A stretch of DNA of 64,000 nucleotides from Hirschia sp. (GTDB taxonomy: Bacteria; Pseudomonadota; Alphaproteobacteria; Caulobacterales; Hyphomonadaceae), in assembly GCA_002709235.1 (NCBI GenBank), contig PAQI01000011.1:187632-251631 (forward strand), in the 5' to 3' direction. The position numbers were made by a program, and so were the translations under genes. Positions 1 to 15,450 of the stretch are shown piece after piece. Numbering within the stretch: the first letter of the stretch is position 1; each line of letters opens with the position of its first letter. The notes beneath the pieces are model-generated. The model was not told the DNA's origin. It saw nothing but the letters and a program-made list of their open reading frames with translations, and made no database searches.

Positions 1-358
1 CCCGCCCCGTCGCGAGCCAGAGCGTGTGTGGCACGTTGGCCTCCTCGCCCTGGACCGCCAGTCGCCCCTCTCGCTCGAGCATATGCGCAAGGAATATCGG
101 CAGCTCCCAGCTATCGCCTTCGGTGATCTCACCATCAACATCGGTGCGATAGGCCTTGTCACCGGTCAGCCGTGAGACGATCCCCGTCTGGTAGTCGACA
201 AACCGGTGATAGGCCCGGCTGACACCGGTTTCCTTCGCTGTCCTGTTGATGCACATGACCGAACGCCGGGCGGCATTGTCCTTTTGCATGCGCTGCACCT
301 GCACGACGGATTGGGTCGTCAGAACGGCCAGCCGGATGTGGGCAATCAGCTCAGCCAA
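1..358 (-). CDS. Hypothetical protein, truncated by window edge
   Basis: This reading frame stays open on the minus strand from about 358 to the first base, giving 119 residues with no stop; the C-terminus lies outside the window. The most likely start is the TTG at 356-358, which overlaps the end of the upstream gene by 13 bases; the first residues would read (M)AELIAHIRLAVLTTQ. There is no convincing Shine-Dalgarno sequence, so translation may be coupled to the upstream gene, and a start at an internal GTG or ATG is possible. No signal peptide or membrane segment is visible and I do not recognise a family. It is the last visible member of the minus-strand run that begins with the lytic transglycosylase. 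Confidence 0.55.
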   Translation of the reverse strand, partial: MAELIAHIRLAVLTTQSVVQVQRMQKDNAARRSVMCINRTAKETGVSRAYHRFVDYQTGIVSRLTGDKAYRTDVDGEITEGDSWELPIFLAHMLEREGRLAVQGEEANVPHTLWLATGR

Positions 359-897
359 ATCTGCGCATCCGGTGTTTGCAAAGCGCGAAGTTCGGGCGAG
401 TCATGGTCAACCAGCGCTTCGACGAGATCATCCTCCTGATCATCATCGAGAATGAGAACTTCCAGCGCATCACTGGTCTTGATGACCAGCCGTCTGAGCG
501 GCCGCATGGCCTCTGGCGCGATCAGCCGCACGAAATAGGTGTTGGGTTCTGCCTCGGACTGCACAATGTGCAACTCCACACCGCTGTCGATTTCCCGTCG
601 CAATGTGACACGACCGCTGGAGGCCGCAGCCGCCATGGGAATTTCCAGACGGGAATGCTCTGCGATCAGCATGTCGAAGACAGTCTGGAAGCTCGCATTT
701 GTCCGCATCGCAAATACCAGCTGGGCCCTCGACACACGAGCTGTCCGGCCGATTGCGAAATCCGCAATGTCAGCGAATGTGACCCGGCCTGCGATATTGT
801 CCGATTGCTCTTCTGTCATGAGGCGATCTTCGTGACGCGCGGCAGCCCGTTGGAGGCTGGCGTTCTGCGCATCTTGAGGCAATTCACTCCACTTCAT
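346..897 (-). CDS. Hypothetical protein, 183 aa
   Basis: A soluble-looking protein of 183 residues that I cannot assign to a family. It has no signal peptide or membrane helix. The C-terminal third is acidic, with the run DDDQEDD near residue 152. The start is well supported: an AAGGAG Shine-Dalgarno overlaps the TAA stop of the upstream 511-residue gene, so the two are probably translationally coupled. Its own stop overlaps the likely TTG start of the next gene. The tight packing suggests that the three genes work together, but the sequence does not say on what. Confidence 0.8.
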   Translation of the reverse strand: MKWSELPQDAQNASLQRAAARHEDRLMTEEQSDNIAGRVTFADIADFAIGRTARVSRAQLVFAMRTNASFQTVFDMLIAEHSRLEIPMAAAASSGRVTLRREIDSGVELHIVQSEAEPNTYFVRLIAPEAMRPLRRLVIKTSDALEVLILDDDQEDDLVEALVDHDSPELRALQTPDAQIWLS

Positions 898-906
898 ATT
901 ATCTCC

Positions 907-2442
907 TTATCCAAAGGACAGCTGATGCACTGTCAGCAGTGTCTTTTGAAAATGCGCGACTTCGGACGAAAATTGCGGGCCTGACCTGCAATTCATGACA
1001 GAGACCTTCAGTTTTGACAGTTCACGCTCCAGTCTCTGCATCAGCTGACCGGAATAATGAACAGCAATATCAAGGTGTTCACTGGGCGATACGCCCGATA
1101 AGGGCTTGAATGCGTTTCGGCGCTTCAACCGGCTCCACGCCTCATTGCCCTGTTTCAGAAAACCCGCAATGAGTTCTGGCGGCTCTGCCCCCTCGGACAG
1201 GAAATCCGTTGCCCCTGACAGAGACTGCAAATCATCCGCCGTCAGCAAGCCATAGCTGACCAGCAGGGTCATTGCGTCCTTCCTGTCGCCATCACTCCAC
1301 AACAGGTAAAATTGAGCCTTCAGGAGCGATGCCAGCTCATTGCAGAGACTCGATTGCACCACGAGGGTTTCACCATGATCAGAAGCGGTCAGATCTTCAT
1401 ATATGCCATTCGCTGACAGACCGGACTTGTCACGCTTGGCCTGAATGAGCTTGTTCTCTGCGGAACGAAATGTCAGCGCCCGCATACGCGACAGATGCAC
1501 TGCCCGCAAATTGCGTAAATCCATCAGCAGGTAATGCGAGCTCCATCCGCCATCGCGTCCCAGCAGTGCTGCAACGATGGGATCAGCGAGCGCCAGGCTC
1601 ACGGAGTCTTCATCGGTTTGCGATCCTTGCGCGAGCGAAAGGTCTTCATCCAGCTGGTAGCTGACCTTTTCGTCATGCATGTCCAAGGCAAATTCCAGAG
1701 GTTGTACGGTCGATGTCTCGTCAACGCTCGCCGTCAGTTCGGCGAGAATTTTCAGCCATTCGGTAAACCGGGTTGGTGCTTCTTCGCTGCTATAGAGTTC
1801 CCAGCCCTGCAATACATGCTGATCCTGCAGGGCATGGCAATCAAACCCATCTTCGCAGGCCGATTCCATGACACGCACAACAAGTGAAAACTTCCGGTGC
1901 GTGTGGTCACTATAGCCCTTTTCCTGTTGCATGCTTGCGATTTCGCGATTGATCATCTGGTTCAGCTGTTTGGCGTGAGCAGCAGAATTGCTCACCCCAT
2001 CTCGCTGTTTCATCGTTTCGATCAGGCTGACCGCAAACAGCTCGATCAGCATGAAACCAAAGCAGGACAGTTTCGGAAGATCTGCGATGTAAAAGAATGT
2101 ATCTGGCGCGGAAGGATTGCGGACCGTGCCATCCTTTTCGATCCAGTCAGCGGGCACATGCTGTTTTAACACCTTCAATGCTGCCTGCGGTGTGACCGGC
2201 GGCTCCAGCACCAGATAGAGAAAGTTCGCTCCCGCATCTGCCAGCACCGCCACCAGGTTTGAAAAGCGGAAAATGAGCCTCGCCCGCTCCCCGGAGCGAA
2301 GATCATTCAACAGATCGAGAACGATCTTGTTCGCCCGGAAATGGATATTCGGATTATCTGTCTGGAACGTCACCCGCTCCAGATAGCTCCGTGCAACGTC
2401 CCGAAACGACCCGATCCGTCCCTCACCAAAGTAAGTCGCCAA
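907..2442 (-). CDS. Hypothetical protein, 511 aa
   Basis: A 511-residue protein without signal peptide or clear transmembrane helix, probably cytoplasmic. It opens with MATYFGEGRIGSF and has hydrophobic stretches near residues 65-80 (FSNLVAVLADAGANFLYLVL) and 125-140 that look like buried core helices. I do not recognise a domain or catalytic motif. It begins 18 bases after the lytic transglycosylase gene ends and ends with a TAA embedded in the ribosome binding site of the following gene, so these genes are very likely one transcript. Whether the transglycosylase is functionally linked is inference from position. Confidence 0.8.
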   Translation of the reverse strand: MATYFGEGRIGSFRDVARSYLERVTFQTDNPNIHFRANKIVLDLLNDLRSGERARLIFRFSNLVAVLADAGANFLYLVLEPPVTPQAALKVLKQHVPADWIEKDGTVRNPSAPDTFFYIADLPKLSCFGFMLIELFAVSLIETMKQRDGVSNSAAHAKQLNQMINREIASMQQEKGYSDHTHRKFSLVVRVMESACEDGFDCHALQDQHVLQGWELYSSEEAPTRFTEWLKILAELTASVDETSTVQPLEFALDMHDEKVSYQLDEDLSLAQGSQTDEDSVSLALADPIVAALLGRDGGWSSHYLLMDLRNLRAVHLSRMRALTFRSAENKLIQAKRDKSGLSANGIYEDLTASDHGETLVVQSSLCNELASLLKAQFYLLWSDGDRKDAMTLLVSYGLLTADDLQSLSGATDFLSEGAEPPELIAGFLKQGNEAWSRLKRRNAFKPLSGVSPSEHLDIAVHYSGQLMQRLERELSKLKVSVMNCRSGPQFSSEVAHFQKTLLTVHQLSFG

Positions 2443-2460: not shown

Positions 2461-3453
2461 CTAGTTCAGCAGTTCACTTTCATGCCGCTCGAGTGCTGCG
2501 CGAAAACTGCGTCTTGCTTCAAATATATCGTCTGAAATCGTAGCAGGTTGTGTGCCGCCGGTCACGGCACGCGAGCCGGATGACATTGAATAAATCGACC
2601 CTCGCTGTCTTGGCGAAGCAATAGCTGGCTGAGCGCGCGTTTGAGGCGCTTCAGATACCGGTGCTGCGGCTGACGCAGCCGGACGTTCCTGTATGACGAT
2701 CCGCTCAACCGGAGTCTCGACTGTGGATGCAGGCAGGTCCTGCTCGGGCAGGTCTGGCGCAGTCTTGCTTTGAATGCCCGCAGTGTCAGCGGGGCTTGAA
2801 GGCTGCGATGCAGGCGCGGTGGCCGTGGGCATTTGGGGGCCGCCCAGCAATATCTGGTCATCCGGGCCACCCGCCAATTCAAACGGCACACCTTCCGCCT
2901 TGATCCCTGCAACAATCTCAGCGACCTGCACATCCTGTTTGTAGCTATCCCAATGACGGTTCACCAGCGACACATAGTCCTCCGTATAACCATGCGGAAT
3001 CGGCGTGCCATCGGCCGCTGTCCGAAGCGTTCCGCCATTATAGTGGGACAATGCAGCGTCCCAGTCATTGCCATACATCCGGTAGAGCTGTTCAAGATAG
3101 GCAACGCCGATCCTGATATTGACGCGCGCATCATAGAGACTGGCGGCTTCAACGCCGAACTCGCCCTTGCCGGTGGCGGGCATGATCTGCATTACGCCAA
3201 TGGCACCGGCATGGGATCTGGCTGTTACATTGAAATTGGATTCCACACGGGCCACGGCAATCGCCAGCTCCGGGGGCACGACCGTGTTCAGATAGGCTTC
3301 CTCTGCGACCATGGTCATGATGGCTTCGCGCGAGAATGGCTTTGGCGATGTGATTTCGCTTTTCAGATTGGCGTTCGCGTCTGGCAATTGCGCGACCGTG
3401 CCGCAAAGGGCGAGTGCCACGATCAAAGACGTTCTGTTCAGGGGGAGTTTCAT
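2461..3453 (-). CDS. Exported lytic transglycosylase (SLT/goose-lysozyme-like fold)
   Basis: A periplasmic lytic transglycosylase predicted to cleave the MurNAc-GlcNAc bond of peptidoglycan, releasing anhydro-muropeptides. The chosen start (ATG at 3451-3453) gives 330 residues, with a signal peptide (MKLPLNRTSLIVALALCG) and a GAGAGGA-type ribosome binding site; the longer open frame upstream has no signal sequence. The SLT domain spans roughly residues 45-170, with catalytic Glu71 in ARVESNFN, followed by GAIGVMQIMPATG and the ALSHYNGGT motif. The C-terminal 130 residues are Pro/Ala/Ser-rich and low in complexity. It precedes two unknown cytoplasmic proteins by a short gap, an arrangement seen when transglycosylases serve an envelope-spanning machine, although no such machine is recognisable here. 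Confidence 0.88.
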   Translation of the reverse strand: MKLPLNRTSLIVALALCGTVAQLPDANANLKSEITSPKPFSREAIMTMVAEEAYLNTVVPPELAIAVARVESNFNVTARSHAGAIGVMQIMPATGKGEFGVEAASLYDARVNIRIGVAYLEQLYRMYGNDWDAALSHYNGGTLRTAADGTPIPHGYTEDYVSLVNRHWDSYKQDVQVAEIVAGIKAEGVPFELAGGPDDQILLGGPQMPTATAPASQPSSPADTAGIQSKTAPDLPEQDLPASTVETPVERIVIQERPAASAAAPVSEAPQTRAQPAIASPRQRGSIYSMSSGSRAVTGGTQPATISDDIFEARRSFRAALERHESELLN

Positions 3454-3529: not shown

Positions 3530-3841
3530 TCAGTTCTCGGCGTAGGGCGTTCCGAAGACATAGCCAGTCGGACCGGCACTGATGGAGAGCTTGCGCCATT
3601 CTGCCTGCGAGCCGAATGTCTCTGTCGCGCTGAAGCTGTCGCCAGCATGAATGCGCGCAATGTCAGGTGCCTCCATGCTTGGGGCACTTCGCAGAGAAAA
3701 ATCACGCAGGGCGACATAATCGCGAACGTCGATCACCTGTTCAGCGGGCACGGTGGCGACGGGTGGTTGTGAGGTTGATGCACAGCCAGTTGCAATCACT
3801 GCAACGAGGCCGATCACGGGTAACAATCGAAGCTTTCTCAT
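3530..3841 (-). CDS. SH3-like domain lipoprotein, 103 aa
   Basis: A small predicted lipoprotein. The N-terminus MRKLRLLPVIGLVAVIATGC is a lipoprotein signal peptide with a lipobox ending at Cys20. Residues 36-100 resemble bacterial SH3 (SH3_3-type) domains: ALRDFSLRSAPSMEAPDIARI is followed by a GDSF turn, W82 and a GYVFG strand near the end. Such domains often bind peptidoglycan or peptides. It lies 76 bases upstream of the transglycosylase start, in the same orientation, which fits a shared cell-wall role (inference). Confidence 0.78.
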   Translation of the reverse strand: MRKLRLLPVIGLVAVIATGCASTSQPPVATVPAEQVIDVRDYVALRDFSLRSAPSMEAPDIARIHAGDSFSATETFGSQAEWRKLSISAGPTGYVFGTPYAEN

Positions 3842-3868: not shown

Positions 3869-4219
3869 TCAGTAAATCTTGTCGATAAGGATGCCGCCAT
3901 CTGCGGACAGGACCATTTTCACCTGGGATGCCGGATATCCCATGGCACCAAGCGTATCCAGGGCACGCGATGCAATCGTGGTGGCGTCACCCGGACCAAT
4001 GACATTTACGCTGTAATAGTTTGAACTACCTGTTGGCGCTTCGACAGTATAACCCGGCAGGGCATCAAATTCCTGCTGAAGCTTCAGCGCTTCCTGAAAG
4101 GTGAAATGTTCAAGCGTGACCAGGTGATGTGAGCTTGGCACGCTCTGCTGTGAGGTGGTGGCGCATGCAGTGGTAGACATTGCGACCAGTGCAAATGCGG
4201 CTTTGGCGATATTGGACAT
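3869..4219 (-). CDS. Small exported protein sharing a domain with the 4395-5351 product
   Basis: A 116-residue exported protein of unknown function. The first 20 residues form a signal peptide ending ACATT; the Cys at 19 could be lipidated, but the lipobox is weak. Residues 32-115 resemble residues 218-303 of the next gene upstream. Both have an EH followed by a hydrophobic segment, GSxN(Y/F)(Y/F)S(V/L)N, a TT pair, a GY about 15 residues later, and a terminal G(I/D)xIID(K/R)I. This looks like a stand-alone copy of that protein's C-terminal domain. A hairpin lies between the two genes, so the smaller gene may be transcribed separately. Confidence 0.8.
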   Translation of the reverse strand: MSNIAKAAFALVAMSTTACATTSQQSVPSSHHLVTLEHFTFQEALKLQQEFDALPGYTVEAPTGSSNYYSVNVIGPGDATTIASRALDTLGAMGYPASQVKMVLSADGGILIDKIY

Positions 4220-4353
4220 GATATTGCTTTCATGAACGCAGATCCGCGTTCTGCTGGTTCTGATGCCCGCATCCGCCTGATCCCGGCATGGCCCGGCGCA
4301 AGTGATGGGGCAATTCCAAACGTCTGGCTAAGGCATGGGATGGATACAAATCA

Positions 4354-4388
4354 CCCCTGCCCGGTAAACCGGCCAGGGGCTTTTGTGT
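4354..4388. terminator. Hairpin terminator between two minus-strand genes
   Basis: A symmetrical hairpin: CCCCTG, C, CCGG, loop TAAA, CCGG, C, CAGGGG. On the plus strand it is followed by CTTTTGTGTCTT; on the minus strand the trailing sequence is less T-rich. It sits 15 bases beyond the stop of the gene ending at 4395 and probably marks the end of the five-gene protease run. Confidence 0.5.
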
Positions 4389-4394
4389 CTTGCC

Positions 4395-5351
4395 TTATTG
4401 ATACAGGCTGCCGGTGCGTACCGGGCGGAAACCACTATCAACAATGCGGTCGATGATGATGTCGCCATTGGCACCTGTGTAGATCTTGAAATTGGCAAGA
4501 TCATAACCGCGGTCCTGCAACATGAGCGGGATCCACTCCAGCAGCTTGGTGGTCTTGGCGCGCGTGTTCAGGTTGAGGCTGAAGAAATTACCGCTACCCA
4601 TCGGTGCCGAGATGTCTTCAGTCATCGGAAACTCATTTTCCATCAGGGATTTGAGCGGGATGATTTCTGTCAGTTCCATGTGTTCGAAGGTGATCTTGTA
4701 TGTGTTCACAAGACCCGCAGCCGCTGACTGACCTGTCACTGCACCACCTGTTGACGCCGACTGACCCAGGGCCTGCTGGTCGAGCATGCGACGCAGCGTG
4801 TCAGAAAGGTTGAGCGCGACCTTGCGGGAGTTTTCGCCAACCACATCTTCCAGACAGATCTGGTTACAATTTGCAGGAGCGTTGAACTTCAGCGTTGGTG
4901 CTTCCCAACCGCCCAGATAGGCATTGGTCTGGGCATCGATCAGCTCACCTGTCATGCGAACCTTGGCGCGGGTGCCGTAACCCAGATCTTCAGCCGATGC
5001 CATGGTGCGAACCAGAACGATCACGCGTGGGCAGGTGCGCGAATTTGCATCCTGACAGGCCTGCTTGACCATACCGATGGTCTGCTGCTTGTCGGCACGG
5101 TCCGGGGATTTCCACTCCAGCTCGGCCATCATGGCATCTGGAAATATCGCTGTGTAGCCAAAGCGCTTCATCTCTTCATTGAGCGGGATCTGAAGGCGGT
5201 GATAGACATCCGATGAACGCACAATGGAGTTCTTGTTGGAGTCATCTGCTGCGACCAGTACACGCACGCCATTATAGTTCTGCTGCGCGTGAGCCACGCC
5301 ACCGCCGGCCAGGAGTGCAAGTCCGAGAGCTGCCAGGATTTTCTGTTTCAT
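4395..5351 (-). CDS. Exported two-domain protein, 318 aa, unknown
   Basis: A secreted or periplasmic protein with a clear signal peptide (MKQKILAALGLALLAGG...AHA, cleavage near residue 22). Residues 25-195 contain strand-rich segments (VRVLVAADD, PRVIVLVRTMA, KVRMTGELIDAQTNAYLGGW) that resemble the TolB/CsgG-like pattern of exported proteins with paired strands and a terminal helix; this is a pattern resemblance only. Four Cys (98, 107, 162, 166) could form disulfides. A linker rich in Gly, Ser and Ala (195-215) leads to a C-terminal domain (218-303) that is also found in the product of 3869-4219. It is the last gene of the protease-headed run, 77 bases after its neighbour. Confidence 0.82.
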   Translation of the reverse strand: MKQKILAALGLALLAGGGVAHAQQNYNGVRVLVAADDSNKNSIVRSSDVYHRLQIPLNEEMKRFGYTAIFPDAMMAELEWKSPDRADKQQTIGMVKQACQDANSRTCPRVIVLVRTMASAEDLGYGTRAKVRMTGELIDAQTNAYLGGWEAPTLKFNAPANCNQICLEDVVGENSRKVALNLSDTLRRMLDQQALGQSASTGGAVTGQSAAAGLVNTYKITFEHMELTEIIPLKSLMENEFPMTEDISAPMGSGNFFSLNLNTRAKTTKLLEWIPLMLQDRGYDLANFKIYTGANGDIIIDRIVDSGFRPVRTGSLYQ

Positions 5352-5428
5352 TTTTCTGTTCCTTTTGAATGTATGGGCCTGATGAAACTGGTAATGAGCG
5401 CATCAGGCAAAAATCTGCCGGGGTCGGA

Positions 5429-6349
5429 TCAAATAAATGATACATCCTTGCCCTGAAGCTCTTTCCGGACCTTCTTGGCTTCTTTCTGAGACTGTTTGCG
5501 GGCGTTCTTCTCGGCCTTTTTCCCATCACTGGCTTCACGCGAAACCTTGCCGATAGCCTGACGCAATGTGACCGTCCCCTTCATGGTTGCGCCCAGCGAT
5601 TTCAATTGTTTTCCAAGATTCTTGATCGCATCTTTGTCCATGCCGACGCTGGCGATGACCGTCTGGACCTTCTCGACATTCTGAACATCACTGCTCGCGA
5701 AATAATCATTCAGAAGCTTCAACCCCGCCAGGGCCGTGCCTCCGTAATAATCAACTTCATCAAGCGCCCTGGCTGCATCCGCAAGATGCTGCTTGGCGGC
5801 GTCCGTCAAAGCTCCATCCGATTTCATTGCTTCAACCTTGGATCTCAACAACGCAGCCTGGGCAGAGGCCGACTGGATGGTGACAACGGTGACATTGCTG
5901 CCGCCTGTACCCAGCCCTTCCAATGCCCGCTCGATCTGAGCGGCCTCGTTCAGCATGGTCTGTTTTTCACCCAGCGCAGCCTGGGCCGAGTTGATCCCCT
6001 GAGCGGCTGACAATGCCGCATGGTCCAGCAACAATGCTGTCAGAATCCAGCGCTCATCATGTGATTTGGCATCGCAAACCACGCTGGTCTTGAACAATCC
6101 GCCTGCCTTGGATTTGAGCATATCCTTTGCATCACCGCCCCATTCACCCAAACGGCCGCCACCTATATTCAGCTTGTCGATCCTGCTGCCGATGAAACCG
6201 CCCTCGCCCTTGCTGGTCTTTCCAGAGCTGTCGAGGACACAGAGATTATCCATTCCCGCATCGAGCAATCCGGCATGCGCCTGAGGCACTGTAAGGAAGC
6301 TGGTCCCAGCGACGAGGCAGGCGGCTGCCCCAAGAATTGAAGTTTTCAT
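5429..6349 (-). CDS. Exported helical protein, 306 aa, unknown
   Basis: The start at 6347-6349 is preferred because it gives a clean signal peptide (MKTSILGAAACLVAGTSFLT...AHA). The mature protein is about 280 residues and is predicted to be almost all helix after residue 110, with Ala/Leu/Lys/Glu-rich heptad-like stretches (around AAQIERALEGLG and AAKQHLADAARALDEV), and ends in a very basic segment (roughly residues 270-305, rich in KK and KE). The only cysteines, near residues 36 and 88, could pair. I do not recognise a family. It lies in the same run as the trypsin-like protease, 52 bases after the preceding gene. Confidence 0.78.
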   Translation of the reverse strand: MKTSILGAAACLVAGTSFLTVPQAHAGLLDAGMDNLCVLDSSGKTSKGEGGFIGSRIDKLNIGGGRLGEWGGDAKDMLKSKAGGLFKTSVVCDAKSHDERWILTALLLDHAALSAAQGINSAQAALGEKQTMLNEAAQIERALEGLGTGGSNVTVVTIQSASAQAALLRSKVEAMKSDGALTDAAKQHLADAARALDEVDYYGGTALAGLKLLNDYFASSDVQNVEKVQTVIASVGMDKDAIKNLGKQLKSLGATMKGTVTLRQAIGKVSREASDGKKAEKNARKQSQKEAKKVRKELQGKDVSFI

Positions 6350-6401
6350 GATCACTTGTCCCAATCTGATCGTGAGTTTGATTTTGATTGCAGCATGGCT
6401 T

Positions 6402-7337
6402 TCACCTGAGGCTGCATGATTGTTCATGCGCGAAGTTGGCGAGTTTCTGCGTCGCATCCCTGGCAGTTGCCGCGACAAGTTGTGCGGACGCATCCGATAC
6501 GGCGGCACGCACGCCTCCCAGATCAACCGCGCCTGTTATCTCCTCGGAGAATGGCGCGATCGGTGTCGCAAGCTCGTTGAGGCTGATGAAGTCGGTATTG
6601 ATCGTGGCATTCATGTCGTCATCATCAGCATTGATCGCAATTTCACCGATGATGAGCATGCCACCACACGCGCTCCACTCGCCAAGGTCTTCATCTTCGT
6701 CCTTGTATTCGCCGATCGCCCGGCGCAATCGAGATGCCATCGCGTCTCTGGCGAGCATGTAATCGTCATAGGATTTCTGGCACTTCTGCGCGCCCTGCTC
6801 ACCGGTAAAGGCGCATTGCTCGACGAGACTGAGCCCCTGAATTTCGTGCTCGAACTGGCTCAGATTGATGATTTTGAAATTGTTTCTTTCAAGCGCCGTC
6901 GTCAGATATCCGATGGCTGCCTTGGCCGTGCGGTCATCCTGTGCGTTGTTCACATCCGCTCGCAGCAATACACCAATCGGTATCGGATCGCTGACGGCGG
7001 AACAGACCCGGCTGGCTTCCAGAAGCTCACGGCGGTCATATCCTGCAACATATTGCACCACACAACGGCCAATCATCGGATAGTCCGTCTGCTTGTATTT
7101 GACACTGACAGCGTCTGGCTTGGCCGACTTCATACATTGCTGATTGTTTGTCGGCAGCGCACTTGCTCGCAATGCCCGCGTCCATGCCGTCGATTCGGCC
7201 TTGTCCAAAGTTGCGCTCCTGCACTCGCGGACTGTCTTGCCAGCAGCATCAATCCTGAAGCTTCCAACAGATGAATCCGCCACCGCGGAAGATGTGGCAA
7301 AAAGGGCCAGGCAGAAAAGAGAGACCAGATAACGCAT
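6402..7337 (-). CDS. Exported protein, 311 aa, FlgT/CsgG-like layout
   Basis: A signal peptide covers residues 1-20 (MRYLVSLFCLALFATSSAVA). The mature N-terminus (AAGKTVRECRSATLDKAESTAWTRAL begins near residue 31) has the conserved small-residue/helix pattern of LPP20/FlgT-type N-terminal domains. Residues 120-260 alternate strands and helices in the manner of CsgG/TolB-like periplasmic domains, including IPIGVLLRADVNN and GGMLIIGEIAINA. These are resemblances, not confident assignments. Cysteines are numerous (Cys39, 68, 92, 112, 176, 186 and others). The gene starts 4 bases after its neighbour ends, so the two are almost certainly co-transcribed. Confidence 0.78.
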   Translation of the reverse strand: MRYLVSLFCLALFATSSAVADSSVGSFRIDAAGKTVRECRSATLDKAESTAWTRALRASALPTNNQQCMKSAKPDAVSVKYKQTDYPMIGRCVVQYVAGYDRRELLEASRVCSAVSDPIPIGVLLRADVNNAQDDRTAKAAIGYLTTALERNNFKIINLSQFEHEIQGLSLVEQCAFTGEQGAQKCQKSYDDYMLARDAMASRLRRAIGEYKDEDEDLGEWSACGGMLIIGEIAINADDDDMNATINTDFISLNELATPIAPFSEEITGAVDLGGVRAAVSDASAQLVAATARDATQKLANFAHEQSCSLR

Positions 7338-7341
7338 GGAG

Positions 7342-8760
7342 CTACTTCCTCAGTTTCCGGGCGAGAGCCTCAAAGGCTTCATTGATGGCTATGAAATAAA
7401 GGATCTGTCGGGAACTCTGATCGAGCTCCGTCTCCGTCTCTGGCCGCACTTCGCTATGCAAGCCTTCGGCCTGAAGCGTCTCGAATGCGGGGCCATAGAT
7501 CTGTGAGCAGTCTTCAGAATCGGTTTCCCACCCCGACACAGCAAGGAATGCTGTGTAGGCATCGGCTGCCAGACCCATATCCTGTTTGGTGGTACCAGTG
7601 GTCAGGCCTATTCCCTGAAGGCTGGGCAAGACCTTGTAGCTGGCCCGGTTCGGGTCAAAGGTGAATGGCGTTGAGCGTGCCAGTTCGGGCAAACCGCTCA
7701 TCGGGAGCCTGAGATTATAGCGCGCCAGCTGGTCTGCGGTTCGGCTGCTCTCCTGCCAGACGGGCGGAGGCATCACCTTGTAGCCAGCCTGCGACAGCGC
7801 ACGACTGGTTGCGCCCACCATGAACCCGACCATGGCGTTGCACGCCGCTGAGCCCGGCTTGCAATAGCTGGCCGGTGCACATGCATTGGGCGTGCGCCCG
7901 GATGTCATGGGATAAAGGTCGCGATTCCAGTCAAACGCTGCTTCAACACGCTGGGCGTTCAGTTTTGTGTCTGCCTGGTCGGCGCGATCTGGGTCCATCA
8001 CCATCGCACCGGTCACCATATAGGTTTCCCAGCTGTCCGAGATCTGTTTCGGATTGGCCCGCTCTGCCAGACGGAACAGATTGAACATCGCGCCATCTGC
8101 CGCCTTCTTGTAGGCAGCCAGATATCGTGTGGCCCATTCAGCGTCAGACAGATGAGGCGAAGACAGGACAAAATCACCGCTGTCCTGAACGATCACCGCG
8201 TCAGATGCCGACAGCACGATCTCATGCTGGCCCATCAAATCAATCAGACTGACCGACACACCGACCATATTGTAGGGCCGATATTGAACACCGTCTGACG
8301 TCTCGCCACGAAACATGGCGTCATGCTCGAAATTACCGGTGAGGACCAGCATATAGGCGTGATCAAACTCCCGGAACATGATCTCGGAGTCGAATTCCTC
8401 ATAGCCCGTCAGGCTCTCATAGGCGCTGGACAGATCAGAACTACTGAAGATGACGGGATGAGAGGTCCAGCGCTCAAGATGGCGGCGCGGCAAGCTGCGG
8501 ACATTCTGCTGAACGGAACTTTGCAGCTCACGCCCGATATCGGAAAAGGCTTCATTACGCTTGACGAAGGAGTTCAGCCATTTCAGACGCGCTTCGTCAA
8601 AATATCCAAATCCGCCATAAATGATAAGCGATCTGTCAGCATCAAACCCGTCATCCGCCGATGCCTGCGAGACAACCGACCCCAGAGACAGGCCGACAAA
8701 GAGCAGGAATGCTGTGACCATTCCCGCCATACCGTCAAATTTCTGCTTACTCTTACGCAT
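7342..8760 (-). CDS. Exported protein, 472 aa, unknown
   Basis: The start at 8758-8760 (MRKSKQKF) is preferred over an upstream in-frame ATG at 8839 because it has an AGGGGACA ribosome binding site and opens directly into a signal peptide (MAGMVTAFLLFVGLSLGSVVSQASA). The mature protein has about 435 residues. Hydrophobic strands YMLVLTGNF and MVGVSVSLIDLMGQHEIVLSA near the middle suggest a beta-rich periplasmic fold, and a cysteine-rich patch (CAPASYCKPGSAAC) lies near residues 305-320. I do not recognise a family. It follows the trypsin-like protease by 61 bases and is followed after 4 bases by the 311-residue protein. Confidence 0.8.
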   Translation of the reverse strand: MRKSKQKFDGMAGMVTAFLLFVGLSLGSVVSQASADDGFDADRSLIIYGGFGYFDEARLKWLNSFVKRNEAFSDIGRELQSSVQQNVRSLPRRHLERWTSHPVIFSSSDLSSAYESLTGYEEFDSEIMFREFDHAYMLVLTGNFEHDAMFRGETSDGVQYRPYNMVGVSVSLIDLMGQHEIVLSASDAVIVQDSGDFVLSSPHLSDAEWATRYLAAYKKAADGAMFNLFRLAERANPKQISDSWETYMVTGAMVMDPDRADQADTKLNAQRVEAAFDWNRDLYPMTSGRTPNACAPASYCKPGSAACNAMVGFMVGATSRALSQAGYKVMPPPVWQESSRTADQLARYNLRLPMSGLPELARSTPFTFDPNRASYKVLPSLQGIGLTTGTTKQDMGLAADAYTAFLAVSGWETDSEDCSQIYGPAFETLQAEGLHSEVRPETETELDQSSRQILYFIAINEAFEALARKLRK

Positions 8761-8821
8761 TGACCTGTCCCCTGACGGCGCGCCGTCCCCTTCATTCCAT
8801 GATTTCAACACCCATCCCGGC

Positions 8822-9841
8822 TCATGGTCGGGGGACTTCATTCAGGCTGTCGATCCGCTCAGCGAAATTGATCATCGCAGCGTTGGGGCGCCGCCCCTGG
8901 ACCACTCTGCCATTGTCATCGAAGACAACTCTTCCATTTACATCGCGGGCCACTTCACCAAACACGTTCCCACCGAAGAGAATTGCGACAACGGTTCCAT
9001 CAGGCGTGAAAATCGGGCTCCCCGATGCGCCGCCTGTTGCTGGCAGATTGTGCCTGATCATGCGGTTTGCATCGTAACCACCATCGGACAGAAAATAGTC
9101 GCTGATCGACGTCACAATGCCCGTCTGCATGGTCGCGATCGGCATGCTCACATTGAGATTGCCACCACTCAGACGCTCCATCGGAAAGCCGAGATATCCA
9201 ACCTTCACGCCAGACCGGAGAAGCTTCAGACTGCTGTCATTGGCAAGATTGAAATGTACGGGGGCCGACTGCGCGGTTCTGATGACCGCAATATCGTAAC
9301 CGCCTGCTGACTCTCGACCGTCAAAATCGACTTCAACCGATCCATATTTCGGGTGTTTCCTGTAGGAAAGCACCTTGAGCCGCAGATCGGGCCGACCATT
9401 GATCGCCACAAAAAAGGACGTGCCGGGAAAAGCCTCCGCATAGTCTGCGATCGCCCCCACCACATGAGAATTTGTCGCGAACAATTTGTCGTCAAACGCC
9501 CAGGCTGTACCGATAGGTGTTGGCCCTTGTCCCGGAATGGATGCGACGACAACACCAACGGCTTCGCGATAGGTATAGGCCGCCTCTGCCAGCTGCGTGT
9601 CACTATCGCCGCCTGATCGCTGTCGCGCATTCGCAGTATCAGTTCTTCTTTCCGCAGCTGTGCTGGTCTTTGCAGGCGTTTCTGTCGTGTCTTCACCGGT
9701 AAACGAGATCTGCGCGAAAGCAGGCATCGCCAGGCTCGCAAGGGCAAATGCAGCCGCGCCGAACATGGCCTTGCGCGAATAGGAGCTGCGAGAAGGGAAC
9801 CTACCGACACCCGACAAGCTGATTGATTTTTCTTTCGACAT
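8822..9841 (-). CDS. Exported trypsin-like serine protease
   Basis: A 339-residue protease of the S1/trypsin fold. A long N-region (residues 1-24) precedes a hydrophobic segment ending AMPAFAQ, so export is expected after residue 43. The catalytic triad is visible: His126 in FATNSHVVG, Asp183 in GYDIAVI, and Ser273 in ATGGASGSPIF. No PDZ domain follows, unlike DegP-type proteases; the protein ends about 65 residues after the catalytic serine. It heads a run of four further exported proteins, which could be substrates, partners or a regulated complex (inference). A TTAA-N7-TTAA site lies about 155 bases upstream. Confidence 0.9.
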   Translation of the reverse strand: MSKEKSISLSGVGRFPSRSSYSRKAMFGAAAFALASLAMPAFAQISFTGEDTTETPAKTSTAAERRTDTANARQRSGGDSDTQLAEAAYTYREAVGVVVASIPGQGPTPIGTAWAFDDKLFATNSHVVGAIADYAEAFPGTSFFVAINGRPDLRLKVLSYRKHPKYGSVEVDFDGRESAGGYDIAVIRTAQSAPVHFNLANDSSLKLLRSGVKVGYLGFPMERLSGGNLNVSMPIATMQTGIVTSISDYFLSDGGYDANRMIRHNLPATGGASGSPIFTPDGTVVAILFGGNVFGEVARDVNGRVVFDDNGRVVQGRRPNAAMINFAERIDSLNEVPRP

Positions 9842-10304: not shown

Positions 10305-10391
10305 TGGTGCGGGCGGCGGGACTCGAACCCGCAAGGGCATTCGCCCGACAGATTTTAAGTCTGTTGTGTCTACCGGTTCCACCACGCCCGC
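10305..10391 (-). tRNA. tRNA-Leu (anticodon UAA)
   Basis: Read on the minus strand, the gene starts GCGGGCGTGGTGGAA and ends CGCCCGC-A-CCA, so the 7-bp acceptor stem is perfect and the CCA tail is encoded. The anticodon loop is CTTAAAA between CAGA and TCTG, giving anticodon TAA. The variable arm is long (CGGGCGAATGCCCTTG region), as expected for a class II leucine tRNA, and the T-arm contains GGTTCGAGTCC. Length with CCA is 87 nucleotides. It decodes UUA, a rare codon in this sequence, and wobble may extend it to UUG. Confidence 0.95.
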
Positions 10392-12320: not shown

Positions 12321-13160
12321 ATGAATTTCGTCGAAGCCGCCGCTGCGCCCCTGCGCAATACAGGCGATATCAAGTTGCACGGACCAGAAGGTTTCGAAGG
12401 CATGCGAAAGGCTGGCCGCATTGCAGCCGCCTGCCTCGACATGCTGGCCAGCGAAGTCAAACCCGGCGTGACAACTGGGCATCTGGATGATCTGGCGCGC
12501 GATTTTGTACTGGATTCAGGCGCGATTTCTGCCACGGTGTTTTATCGCGGCTACAAGAACTTTCTCTGTACCTCGATCAATCACGTCGTCTGTCACGGCA
12601 TTCCGACGCATGACAAGGCGCTCAAGGAAGGCGACATCCTGAACATTGATGTCACCGTGATCGTCGATGGCTGGCATGGCGACACATCGCGCATGTATGT
12701 GGCAGGCGAGGCCAAGCGCAAGGCACAACGCCTGATGGATGTGACGTGGGAATGCCTTCAGCGCGGTCTTGCAGTCGTCAAACCCGGGAACACCACCTAT
12801 GATATCGGCAAGGCCATTCAGGACCACGCCGAGCGCCAGCGTTGTTCCGTGGTGGAAGCGTTTTGCGGTCATGGTCTGGGTCGCCTGTTTCATGACAGCC
12901 CGAACATCCTGCATTTCGGCCAGAAGAATGCCAGTGTCGAACTCAAGCCCGGCATGTTCTTCACCATCGAACCGATGATCAATCTCGGCAAGAAGGATGT
13001 CGCCCTGCTGCCGGATGGCTGGACCGCCGTGACCCGCGACCGCTCCTTGACCGCACAATTCGAGCACTCCATCGGCGTGACCGAAGATGGCTGCGAGATC
13101 TTCACGCTCTCGCCCGCCGGTATCCACACGCCGCACACGCAATCCACCGACGCAAGCTGA
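12321..13160 (+). CDS. map: Methionine aminopeptidase type I
   Basis: Removes the initiator methionine from nascent proteins in the cytoplasm. All five metal ligands are present (279-residue numbering): Asp110 in LNIDVTV, Asp121 in HGDTSR, His184 in GHGLG, Glu217 in TIEP and Glu248 in EHS; substrate-site His92 is in CHGIP. The start at 12321 is chosen because an AAGGAAG sequence lies upstream and alphaproteobacterial MetAPs typically begin about 20 residues before the HGPEGFEGMRKAG segment; an alternative ATG at 12291 would add ten residues. radC follows after 67 bases in the same direction. Confidence 0.95.
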   Translation: MNFVEAAAAPLRNTGDIKLHGPEGFEGMRKAGRIAAACLDMLASEVKPGVTTGHLDDLARDFVLDSGAISATVFYRGYKNFLCTSINHVVCHGIPTHDKALKEGDILNIDVTVIVDGWHGDTSRMYVAGEAKRKAQRLMDVTWECLQRGLAVVKPGNTTYDIGKAIQDHAERQRCSVVEAFCGHGLGRLFHDSPNILHFGQKNASVELKPGMFFTIEPMINLGKKDVALLPDGWTAVTRDRSLTAQFEHSIGVTEDGCEIFTLSPAGIHTPHTQSTDAS

Positions 13161-13227
13161 CGCGAAGCCGCTTGCATTCGCCTGCAAGACATCAATACTG
13201 ATCCCCGATGGATTTGATGGGGGCCAC

Positions 13228-13995
13228 ATGTCTGGCGATGGTATGAAGGAAGGCGGCGGCCTGTTTGGCAAGCTACCTGAAGGCGTGACCCTGCCGACCG
13301 CTGATGTCGGCAAACCCGCCGCGCGCAAACATTATCATGGCCACCGTGAACGCCTGCGCCAGCGCCTGATCGATGGCGAGGACAATGCCCTTGCAGATTA
13401 TGAATTGCTGGAACTGCTGTTATGCGCCTTTATTCCGCGCCGTGATGTCAAACCCATTGCCAAGGACCTGGTGGCCCGGTTTGGCGGTGTATCCGGTGCC
13501 CTCGCCGCGCCGGTGAACAAGCTCGTGCAGGTGGACGGCATAGGCGAAACCGCTGCTGCCTATATCCACACCACCCATCTTCTCAACCAGCGCGCCACGC
13601 GCGAACAGATCGCGAAAAAGCCGGTGATCGGCTCTTGGGCGGCTGTGCTGGACTATGTGAAGATCAGCCTCCAGCACGAAACCGAAGAACAGTTTCGTGT
13701 GCTGTTCCTGGACCGCAAGAACCAGCTGATCATGGATGAACGTCAGGCGCGCGGAACGGTGGACCATGCCCCTGTCTATCCGCGCGAGTTGGCCCGCCGG
13801 GCGCTGGAGCTGTCGGCCTCGGCAATGATCCTGGTGCACAATCACCCATCCGGTGACCCTACCCCCTCAAGCGCCGATATCACCGTCACGCGAGAGATCA
13901 TGGATGCCCTCGACCCGCTGGAGATCACCGTTCACGATCATCTGATCGTCGGCAAATCCGGCGTGGTCAGCCTGAAGACATTGGGAAAGATCTAG
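13228..13995 (+). CDS. radC: RadC family JAMM-domain protein
   Basis: A 255-residue member of the RadC (UPF0758) family. A helix-hairpin-helix-like region (about 55-115, with LVQVDGIGETAA) precedes a JAB/JAMM domain with Glu154, His204, His206 (VHNHPSGDP) and Asp217 (SSAD), the expected zinc ligands. RadC was named for DNA repair, but its actual role is not settled. The start at 13228 follows GGGGG; the first 30 residues are poorly conserved. It follows map on the same strand and ends shortly before a strong terminator. Confidence 0.93.
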   Translation: MSGDGMKEGGGLFGKLPEGVTLPTADVGKPAARKHYHGHRERLRQRLIDGEDNALADYELLELLLCAFIPRRDVKPIAKDLVARFGGVSGALAAPVNKLVQVDGIGETAAAYIHTTHLLNQRATREQIAKKPVIGSWAAVLDYVKISLQHETEEQFRVLFLDRKNQLIMDERQARGTVDHAPVYPRELARRALELSASAMILVHNHPSGDPTPSSADITVTREIMDALDPLEITVHDHLIVGKSGVVSLKTLGKI

Positions 13996-14035
13996 GGGGC
14001 AAGATCTAGCGGCCTGTTCAACCACAATGCAAAAG

Positions 14036-14099
14036 CAAAAACCCCCGCCAGTTTCCTGACGGGGGTTTTCTCAGCCCGAAGGCTTTTTCTTGTCAGCCC
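14036..14099. terminator. Bidirectional terminator between radC and the repeat protein
   Basis: The stem ACCCCCGCCAG / CTGACGGGGGT with loop TTTC lies at 14041-14066, flanked by an A-run on the left and TTTT on the right, so it can work in both directions for the convergent genes. A second small hairpin, AGCC-CGAA-GGCT followed by TTTTTCTT, lies at 14083-14099. Confidence 0.85.
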
Positions 14100-14103
14100 G
14101 TGA

Positions 14104-15075
14104 TCAGAACGGGGTCACGCCGAGCGAACGCACGGTGTCGACAGTCAGGTAACCGACTGGCAGGCCGTTGGCACGCTGATAGGATTCCATTGCACGCAGG
14201 GTCGAAGGACCAAATGCGCCATCTGCTGGCACATCATAACCGGCTGCAGTCAGAGCACGCTGAACTTCGGAGATCTTGACGGTGGTGGTGTTGGAGTCAC
14301 ACAGCACTTCACGCCACTCAAGGCCGCCACCACCGGTGACAACACGCTTTTCGAGTGTCTTGTATGTCGCAGGAATGGTGATGACTTCTTCAGTCGCCGG
14401 GGAAACCAGACGACGAACGGAAACGGTCTTGGTTACCGCTGGAATGACTTCTTCGACAACTTGCGGCGGCTGAGCCACAACCTGCTTGGAAACGGTTTCA
14501 TATTTGGCAGGAATTACGCGCGTGTCAGTTGCCTCGGCGGATACAACACGTGTGCGGGTCACGGTCTTGTATTCGGCAGGCACTTCAACCTTACAGAGCA
14601 GTTCACCGGTTGCGGAAGCAACGCCATCAGCGGATGTGCCAAGGCCAGCTGCGCCACGACCAAAGAGGCCGGCACCGGGCTTCCATGTGGTGTATGCCGG
14701 ACGCACCATGACCTGCTCGGTGTAGGTTTCGTACTTGGCAGGAACAACCATTGATTCTGTACGCTCAGGCTCAACAATGACCTGCTCGGTCACGGTCTCG
14801 TAAGACGCCGGAATGACCTTGTACTGAGTGGTTTCTTCCTTGACGACGACTGTTTCGGTGACAGTTTCATAGGTCGCGGGAATGATCTTGATCTCGGTGC
14901 GTTCCGGCTGGTCGACAACCTGTTCGGTCATTACTTCAGTTGTTTCCGGAATCAGGACGCGCGCAAAGCACTGACCTGGTTGTGCTTCCGGCGGATATCC
15001 CGCCGATTGTGCGTTAGCAACGCCCGCAAGACCAATAATGGTCGCTGCGGATAGCATGAGTGTTCTTGTAGCCAT
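14104..15075 (-). CDS. Exported repeat protein with C-terminal peptidoglycan-binding domain
   Basis: A 323-residue exported protein. The start at 15073-15075 gives a signal peptide (MATRTLMLSAATIIGLAGVANA) behind a GGGGAGAG site. The central part is about seven repeats of roughly 22-38 residues built on (V/I)(I/V)PAxYETVTxxVVV: PATYETVTETVVV, PASYETVTEQVIV, PAKYETYTEQVMV, PAEYKTVTRTRVV, PAKYETVSKQVVA, PAVTKTVSVRRLV and PATYKTLEKRVV. A Gly/Ala-rich insert splits the third and fourth. Residues 268-320 form a PG_binding_1 domain (VQRALTAAGYDVPADGAFG, then TLRAMESYQRANG). It is probably a periplasmic or outer-surface structural protein anchored to peptidoglycan. Confidence 0.87.
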   Translation of the reverse strand: MATRTLMLSAATIIGLAGVANAQSAGYPPEAQPGQCFARVLIPETTEVMTEQVVDQPERTEIKIIPATYETVTETVVVKEETTQYKVIPASYETVTEQVIVEPERTESMVVPAKYETYTEQVMVRPAYTTWKPGAGLFGRGAAGLGTSADGVASATGELLCKVEVPAEYKTVTRTRVVSAEATDTRVIPAKYETVSKQVVAQPPQVVEEVIPAVTKTVSVRRLVSPATEEVITIPATYKTLEKRVVTGGGGLEWREVLCDSNTTTVKISEVQRALTAAGYDVPADGAFGPSTLRAMESYQRANGLPVGYLTVDTVRSLGVTPF

Positions 15076-15450
15076 TTTCAGCTCTCCCCTGGATCGCACA
15101 GCCCAATCTGTGCACCTAGTAATGCGAAGAGGCCGCAATCCAACGAACCATCGCCTTTGGAACCGCATCAGCTCTGCTGTTCCAGCCCCTCTTCATTGGC
15201 GTATATTAACGGAATATAATTCGGCAACCAGCAGAAATAGCAGTGAATCATCTACATTACAGGAAATACATGCTTCATTCACTTTGATAAAAGCGTCATA
15301 AAACAAAATCTTCCCCAAGGACTAGAAAAGATGGATGCGTGTCTTTGCTTTTCCTCGATTGCTGACTAGAAGCATCGGCTTATTGAATCTGGTGACTTAC
15401 TGTCACCTCTGCGCAATTGCACACATCCTCTACTTCAGGGAGCTCCCTCA
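15076..15450. other. Intergenic region between divergent genes
   Basis: This region separates the minus-strand repeat protein from plus-strand purB and must hold both promoters. It has an AT-rich core (about 15195-15330). I see no small gene or regulatory RNA that I could defend. An AGGGAG ribosome binding site for purB lies at 15438-15443. Confidence 0.5.

Follow-up and report, generated by a model that had tools for sequence, protein, structure and literature searches.

An eleven-gene cassette in Hirschia that pairs exported proteins with a membrane-anchored Lon-like protein, and its relatives in two classes of Proteobacteria

The run of genes at 4395-9841 of the window (the whole 64,000-nucleotide stretch of Hirschia sp. 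DNA analysed here) had been described in an earlier note as a five-gene unit of exported proteins headed by a trypsin-like protease. The five adjacent minus-strand genes, here A to E, are present as described, with gaps of 61, 4, 52 and 77 nt, apart from a shift in the start of B, whose open reading frame opens at 8841 but whose signal-type N-terminus is obtained from a start at 8760. The limits of the unit, on the other hand, need to be redrawn. Genes F, G, H, I, J and K continue on the same strand after E, at gaps of 175, 27, 76, 18 and 9 nt and finally with an overlap of J and K, and K leaves the window at base 1. The true run is thus one of 11 close-packed minus-strand genes, A to K, extending from 9841 past the window start (Table 1). 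Signal peptides in the run were assigned by eye.

Table 1. Genes and other features of the cassette and its upstream flank, in the direction of transcription.
Feature	Position	Strand	Description
tRNA-Leu(TAA)	10305..10391	-	Directly upstream of cassette
CtrA-type half-site pair, TTAA-N7-TTAA	9998..10012	.	157 nt upstream of A
A	8822..9841	-	Exported trypsin-like serine protease, probable lineage-specific addition; Pfam Trypsin_2 5.5e-13
B	7342..8760	-	Exported protein of ~472 aa; homologues in L007, L008, L035 and L038
C	6402..7337	-	Exported protein of 311 aa; same position as C genes of L007 and L008
D	5429..6349	-	Exported, helical, with a basic tail; positional counterparts in L007, L008 and L035; no Pfam or NCBIfam family
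E	4395..5351	-	Exported two-domain protein; N domain predicted to have a CsgG/PelC/FlgT-type fold, C domain found a second time in F
Hairpin between E and F	4325..4394	-	Folding z -3.24
F	3869..4219	-	Small lipoprotein-like protein that repeats the C-terminal domain of E; also in L007 and L008
G	3530..3841	-	Small lipoprotein-like SH3_3 protein; Pfam SH3_3 8e-7; also in L035
H	about 2461..3453	-	Exported SLT lytic transglycosylase; Pfam SLT (PF01464) 7.8e-22
I	907..2442	-	Cytosolic protein of ~510 aa, no signal peptide; no known family
J	346..897	-	Cytosolic protein of ~183 aa; no known family
K	1..358	-	First ~119 of ~381 residues; remainder at G000:C11:186844-187631 (L009)

Few of these proteins resemble anything named. 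B to E match no family in Pfam, NCBIfam, PHROG or PADLOC, in agreement with the original description of four genes without recognised function, and I and J match none in Pfam, NCBIfam or PHROG. Profiles of I and of E retrieve no credible relative among PDB sequences. The C genes of L007 and L008 match each other at 1e-29 and that of L035 is recognised by an HMM. Profiles of B, C and D, set against those of the partner families in other cassettes, gave no match. The assignment of H is aided by its E-S-N-F and GVMQ motifs. The suggestion that one of the exported proteins has a C-terminal domain repeated in a separate small protein is borne out by F, which aligns with residues 194-303 of E at 28% identity (4e-7). 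E itself is 32% and 28% identical to its relatives.

Two of the proteins had also been thought to have a FlgT- or CsgG/TolB-like layout. For E, this gains support from a structure model (pLDDT 85.4), whose N domain is matched by Foldseek to an LPHT ring protein (7e-6), FlgT (9e-5), CsgG (1e-4) and PelC (2e-4 to 1e-3), so that the domain resembles the CsgG/PelC/FlgT alpha/beta fold. The TM scores of about 0.25-0.6 are those of a common fold that is found also in unrelated lipoproteins. Pfam shows no match of E to CsgG, PelC or FlgT at the sequence level, and hhalign relates E to the CsgG-like family of other cassettes weakly, with a probability of 18%. The C-terminal domain of E is most like ribosomal eL22 in fold (Z 9.9), a likeness that says nothing on function. 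For C, the FlgT-like layout is a judgement by eye only.

K is the last gene of the run. Lon-type peptidase domains are known mainly within cytosolic or membrane-bound AAA+ proteases, and Lon-fold domains can, as in RadA, be non-proteolytic. When a K profile built from 43 sequences is compared with the PDB, 17 matches fall below 1e-3; every one of them is a Lon protease, the best at E=2e-5. Residues 1-187 of an AlphaFold model of K (pLDDT ~96) superpose in VIA on the human Lon protease domain (2x36) with Z=15.0 and an rmsd of 2.9 over 157 aligned residues. Ser79 and Lys129 are invariant in 43/43 sequences; the Lys sits within the stretch aligned to Lon, and the Ser is equated with that of Lon by motif (GxSWQL vs GPSAG) and spacing only. 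By modelled fold and by dyad, then, the N-terminal half of K is predicted to be a Lon-type Ser-Lys peptidase domain. In the window genome the two residues are S83 and K135, and a single TM segment near residue 218 is followed by a periplasmic C-terminal part. An Arg/Lys-rich flank before the TM segment suggests that the Lon domain is cytoplasmic. Most copies are ~381-470 aa long, with the Lon domain followed by the TM segment, and Pfam finds no AAA+ ATPase in K, which is therefore not LonA or LonB, only a Lon-domain protein. The Foldseek ranking of the whole K model was not used, since beta-sandwich matches to the C-terminal part dominate it; two independent sources, VIA and the sequence profile, supply the Lon match. 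In the source genome the K gene (L009:18845-19990) has a single ambiguous base (N), which puts an X into the translated Lon-like domain. Some Alteromonadales copies are natural fusions, with a Ser/Thr kinase and TonB_C in L091 (9989-12607) and with FHA in L093, L099 and L102.

How widely the cassette occurs was assessed at increasing phyletic depth. Among 100 genomes of the family, the source genome apart, E is present in two and B in one; both E-bearing genomes have B-C-D-E-F-H-I-J-K in the same order, and an order-wide search added one genome (G203), again with the same gene order. B to E recur in order together with H-I-J-K in three other genomes (L007, L008 and L035), which upholds the expectation of a conserved neighbourhood for these four genes; A is absent from it. 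B is kept only in Caulobacterales-type cassettes and one further genome, and B, C and D are missing from most related loci. In a class-wide search E was found in 16/385 genomes, with H-I-J-K the constant part of the surrounding regions. Scanned with an alignment of K sequences, 84,980 species genomes yielded 60 loci, among them those of Aestuariispira, Terasakiella, Thalassobaculum, Nisaea, Pseudoalteromonas, Colwellia, Alteromonas, Glaciecola and Paraglaciecola. The K profile also picks up ~800-aa open reading frames at model positions 100-200 in most genomes, and matches of the scan at E 1e-7 to 1e-3 were set aside, nearly all being such frames, presumably Lon itself. The K scan and the class-wide search share genomes (L051 and G613, for example), so the two sets are not independent.

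In the 48 K loci with enough upstream sequence, the same-strand partners are I (46/48), J (40/48) and H (31/48). Genome-wide, K is present in 20/385 genomes and accompanies E in 11/12 (Fisher 3e-15), an association that stays at 1e-12 when the two genomes from which the E profile was built are removed and that holds where the genes lie apart, as in G779. Distance matrices of I, J and K correlate strongly (r=0.82-0.88), those of E and H less so (r 0.43-0.72; permutation p 0.001, shared ancestry included), as expected if the core travels together. The conserved core is H-I-J-K, usually with E, and it is seen in about 60 named loci of Alphaproteobacteria and Alteromonadales. Its carriers, about 60 species-level genomes, are Rhodospirillales-type Alphaproteobacteria, relatives of the Caulobacterales and Alteromonadales; related cassettes span two classes of Proteobacteria. 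These data support the assignment of B to E to a conserved, unnamed envelope system, as the earlier note had proposed.

The protease presents a different picture. All three residues of its triad, His126, Asp183 and Ser273, are in place, and with domain and triad together A is a trypsin-like (S1) protease, as first described. The Pfam scan also confirms that it has no PDZ domain, so A lacks the PDZ-after-protease arrangement of HtrA/DegP. No homologue of A passes E<=1e-3 in 100 further family genomes, and 67 related loci gave none either. As far as sequence searches can tell, A is a local, lineage-specific addition and not part of the conserved cassette. Other exported proteases are found elsewhere: an HEFGH metalloprotease in L007 and L008, a caspase in several Rhodospirillales-type loci and an OmpA-subtilase fusion in L083, where a gene at 12548-14779, adjoining E, joins an OmpA domain to a subtilisin-type protease. 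The exported proteases of these cassettes look like interchangeable accessories. The constant protease, a putative one, is instead the membrane-anchored Lon-like K of the downstream core, which the earlier note had not included.

Fuller versions of the cassette add families N, P, Q, R, S and T, OmpA proteins of wall-anchor type, a CsgG/DUF4384 protein, caspases and kinase-FGE proteins, as well as TonB-like parts, kinases and FHA domains. Family S matches the MotA/ExbB family (PF01618) weakly in 10/19 members, which suggests that it may provide a proton-driven motor in the full versions. N has one TM segment with an invariant Glu and, by eye only, resembles ExbD/TolR; Pfam gives no ExbD match for it, and neither the S nor the N profile matches the PDB. 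Neither S nor N turned up in the source genome (G000) or in G036, G005 and G203, the three cassette carriers nearest to it; the search for N had no positive control among the genomes covered, and the S profile gave no match below E=0.18 in G000. The window accordingly appears to hold a motor-less form. Beside the module in some loci lie proteins that combine a kinase, PG_binding_1 and FGE-sulfatase, or a caspase and FGE-sulfatase (L099:314-3091; L088:11733-14480; L101:5368-7071). In ten Alphaproteobacterial loci (L055, L059, L060, L061, L065, L067, L068, L069, L072 and L076) K has a gene for an exported, vWA-like DUF1194 protein no more than about 10 kb away, and the two share a strand in 9/9 tested.

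Two flanking signals had been proposed for the unit. The CtrA-like site upstream of A is indeed a perfect TTAA-N7-TTAA, the one such site in the window against 0.04 expected, a count that is reached by 4/100 shuffles. The hairpin placed at the end of the unit does fold, but it lies ahead of genes F to K, was missing from the terminator scan and has no T tract, and is therefore not a classical terminator. The cassette adjoins a tRNA-Leu(TAA) gene, and two congeners (G006 and G016) keep map, a moaB-like gene and the same tRNA nearby without the cassette, so that the tRNA may be an island-type insertion site. The cassette does not stand out as foreign by its GC content; plasmid searches with E and with an Alteromonadales K gave no match, nor did a phage search with A. 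In the source genome K is followed on the same strand by a type I secretion ABC transporter and an HlyD-type protein (L009:15475-18650), a pair that the relatives inspected do not have at this place. Elsewhere in the window, and unrelated to the cassette, 14104-15168 encodes many YETVTEQVVV-type repeats and a peptidoglycan-binding-like end.

We favour, with a probability of roughly 0.45, an explanation in which H, I, J and the Lon-like K, usually with E, form a trans-envelope complex. A to E would then be the promoter-proximal, exported half of an 11-gene cassette joining a wall-cutting enzyme, ring-type proteins and an inner-membrane protease. The explanation starts from demonstrated features of the cassette: its gene order and conservation, E and K occurring in the same genomes, a Lon fold with its dyad in K, the fold of E and the SLT domain of H. 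E, with B, C, D, F and G, may build a ring-like assembly in the periplasm or at the outer membrane, for the seating of which H would open the peptidoglycan. The periplasmic tail of K could be the link between this assembly and the Lon-like domain in the cytoplasm; together with I and J, that domain would cleave a cytosolic target upon a change of state on the envelope side. Slightly less probable still is the broader proposal that SLT enzyme, I, J, K and CsgG-fold E define a new class of trans-envelope machine in Proteobacteria, in which changes in the state of the outer membrane or wall, driven by the proton motor in full versions, are turned into cytoplasmic proteolysis or phosphosignalling.

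Since the protease, caspase and kinase parts are exchangeable, the main rival to the trans-envelope complex is a stress-sensing or conflict device (self-killing or anti-invader), in which envelope damage would activate K and an exported accessory protease, be it trypsin, caspase or subtilase, to destroy components of the cell. In favour of such a device, the cassette is patchy in occurrence, and the way in which trypsin, caspase, subtilase, HEFGH metalloprotease, kinase, FHA and FGE-type parts replace one another is like the swapping of effectors in NTP-dependent conflict systems (PMC7159879, PMC8195603). However, the cassette proteins scanned include no STAND, MoxR or AP-ATPase; in PADLOC, A has only weak matches to protease domains, and B to E, I, J and K have none; and the locus is chromosomal, without the plasmid or phage matches sought above. 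The SLT enzyme, the OmpA parts and the ring-fold protein point rather to a standing envelope structure, and we regard a conflict device as a possibility of clearly lower weight.

A further reading, an improbable one, takes the window copy for a remnant, in decay or put to another use, that was acquired beside tRNA-Leu and is no longer a machine once deprived of the MotA/ExbB-like and OmpA parts. This would account for the failure to find S and N in the source genome and its nearest carriers, for congeners that lack the cassette beside the same tRNA and for the high divergence of cassette sequences. Against it, four short versions (the window, L007, L008 and L035) keep all of B to K, with open frames and the Ser and Lys of K, which argues that the short form is stably kept; the ambiguous base in the window K is an N from sequencing and makes no stop. 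The original model, with A controlling or maturing an assembly of B to E in the outer membrane or periplasm, fares worst and now seems very unlikely. A does come first in the run, 61 nt before B and with an intact triad, but the searches for its homologues in 100 family genomes and 67 related loci came back empty and the order of B to E is kept without it in L007, L008 and L035, so that the system in general can do without A.

E, I, J, K, N, P, R and S fall outside all family models, and no description of the gene combination was found in the open-licence literature. What sets the cassette apart is a Lon-type domain on a single TM segment with a periplasmic tail, whose gene shares a conserved operon with those for a wall-cutting enzyme and for envelope proteins of ring-type fold. 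If these make up one machine, it would represent a novel route by which information or force crosses the entire envelope, and the natural Lon-kinase-TonB_C and Lon-FHA fusions make such coupling directly testable.

Comparison with known systems brings out what is shared and what is particular. NTP-dependent conflict systems (VMAP, iSTAND and EACC1) have the same interchangeable trypsin, caspase, kinase, FHA and FGE-type parts (PMC7159879, PMC8195603), whereas the cassette parts differ in being mostly exported and include no NTPase switch among the proteins scanned; neither a Lon peptidase nor a transglycosylase is mentioned in these two papers. Like Tol-Pal and ExbBD-TonB, the full versions carry a MotA/ExbB-like protein, OmpA domains and TonB_C. 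The core is of another composition (SLT enzyme, I, J and Lon-like K), with no recognisable TolA, TolB or ExbD, and the MotA/TolQ/ExbB channel protein is missing from the window cassette. The N domain of E shares its predicted fold with the outer-membrane ring proteins CsgG, PelC and FlgT, from which E differs by its extra C-terminal domain, found again in F, and, in the window copy, by having no lipobox. Finally, K has in common with the proteolytic domain of Lon (MEROPS S16) its predicted fold, a TG motif and the invariant Ser and Lys at matching positions, but it has GxSWQL in place of GPSAG and no AAA+ ATPase, and its Lon-like domain is joined instead to a TM segment and a periplasmic region, in some Alteromonadales with a kinase, TonB_C or FHA.
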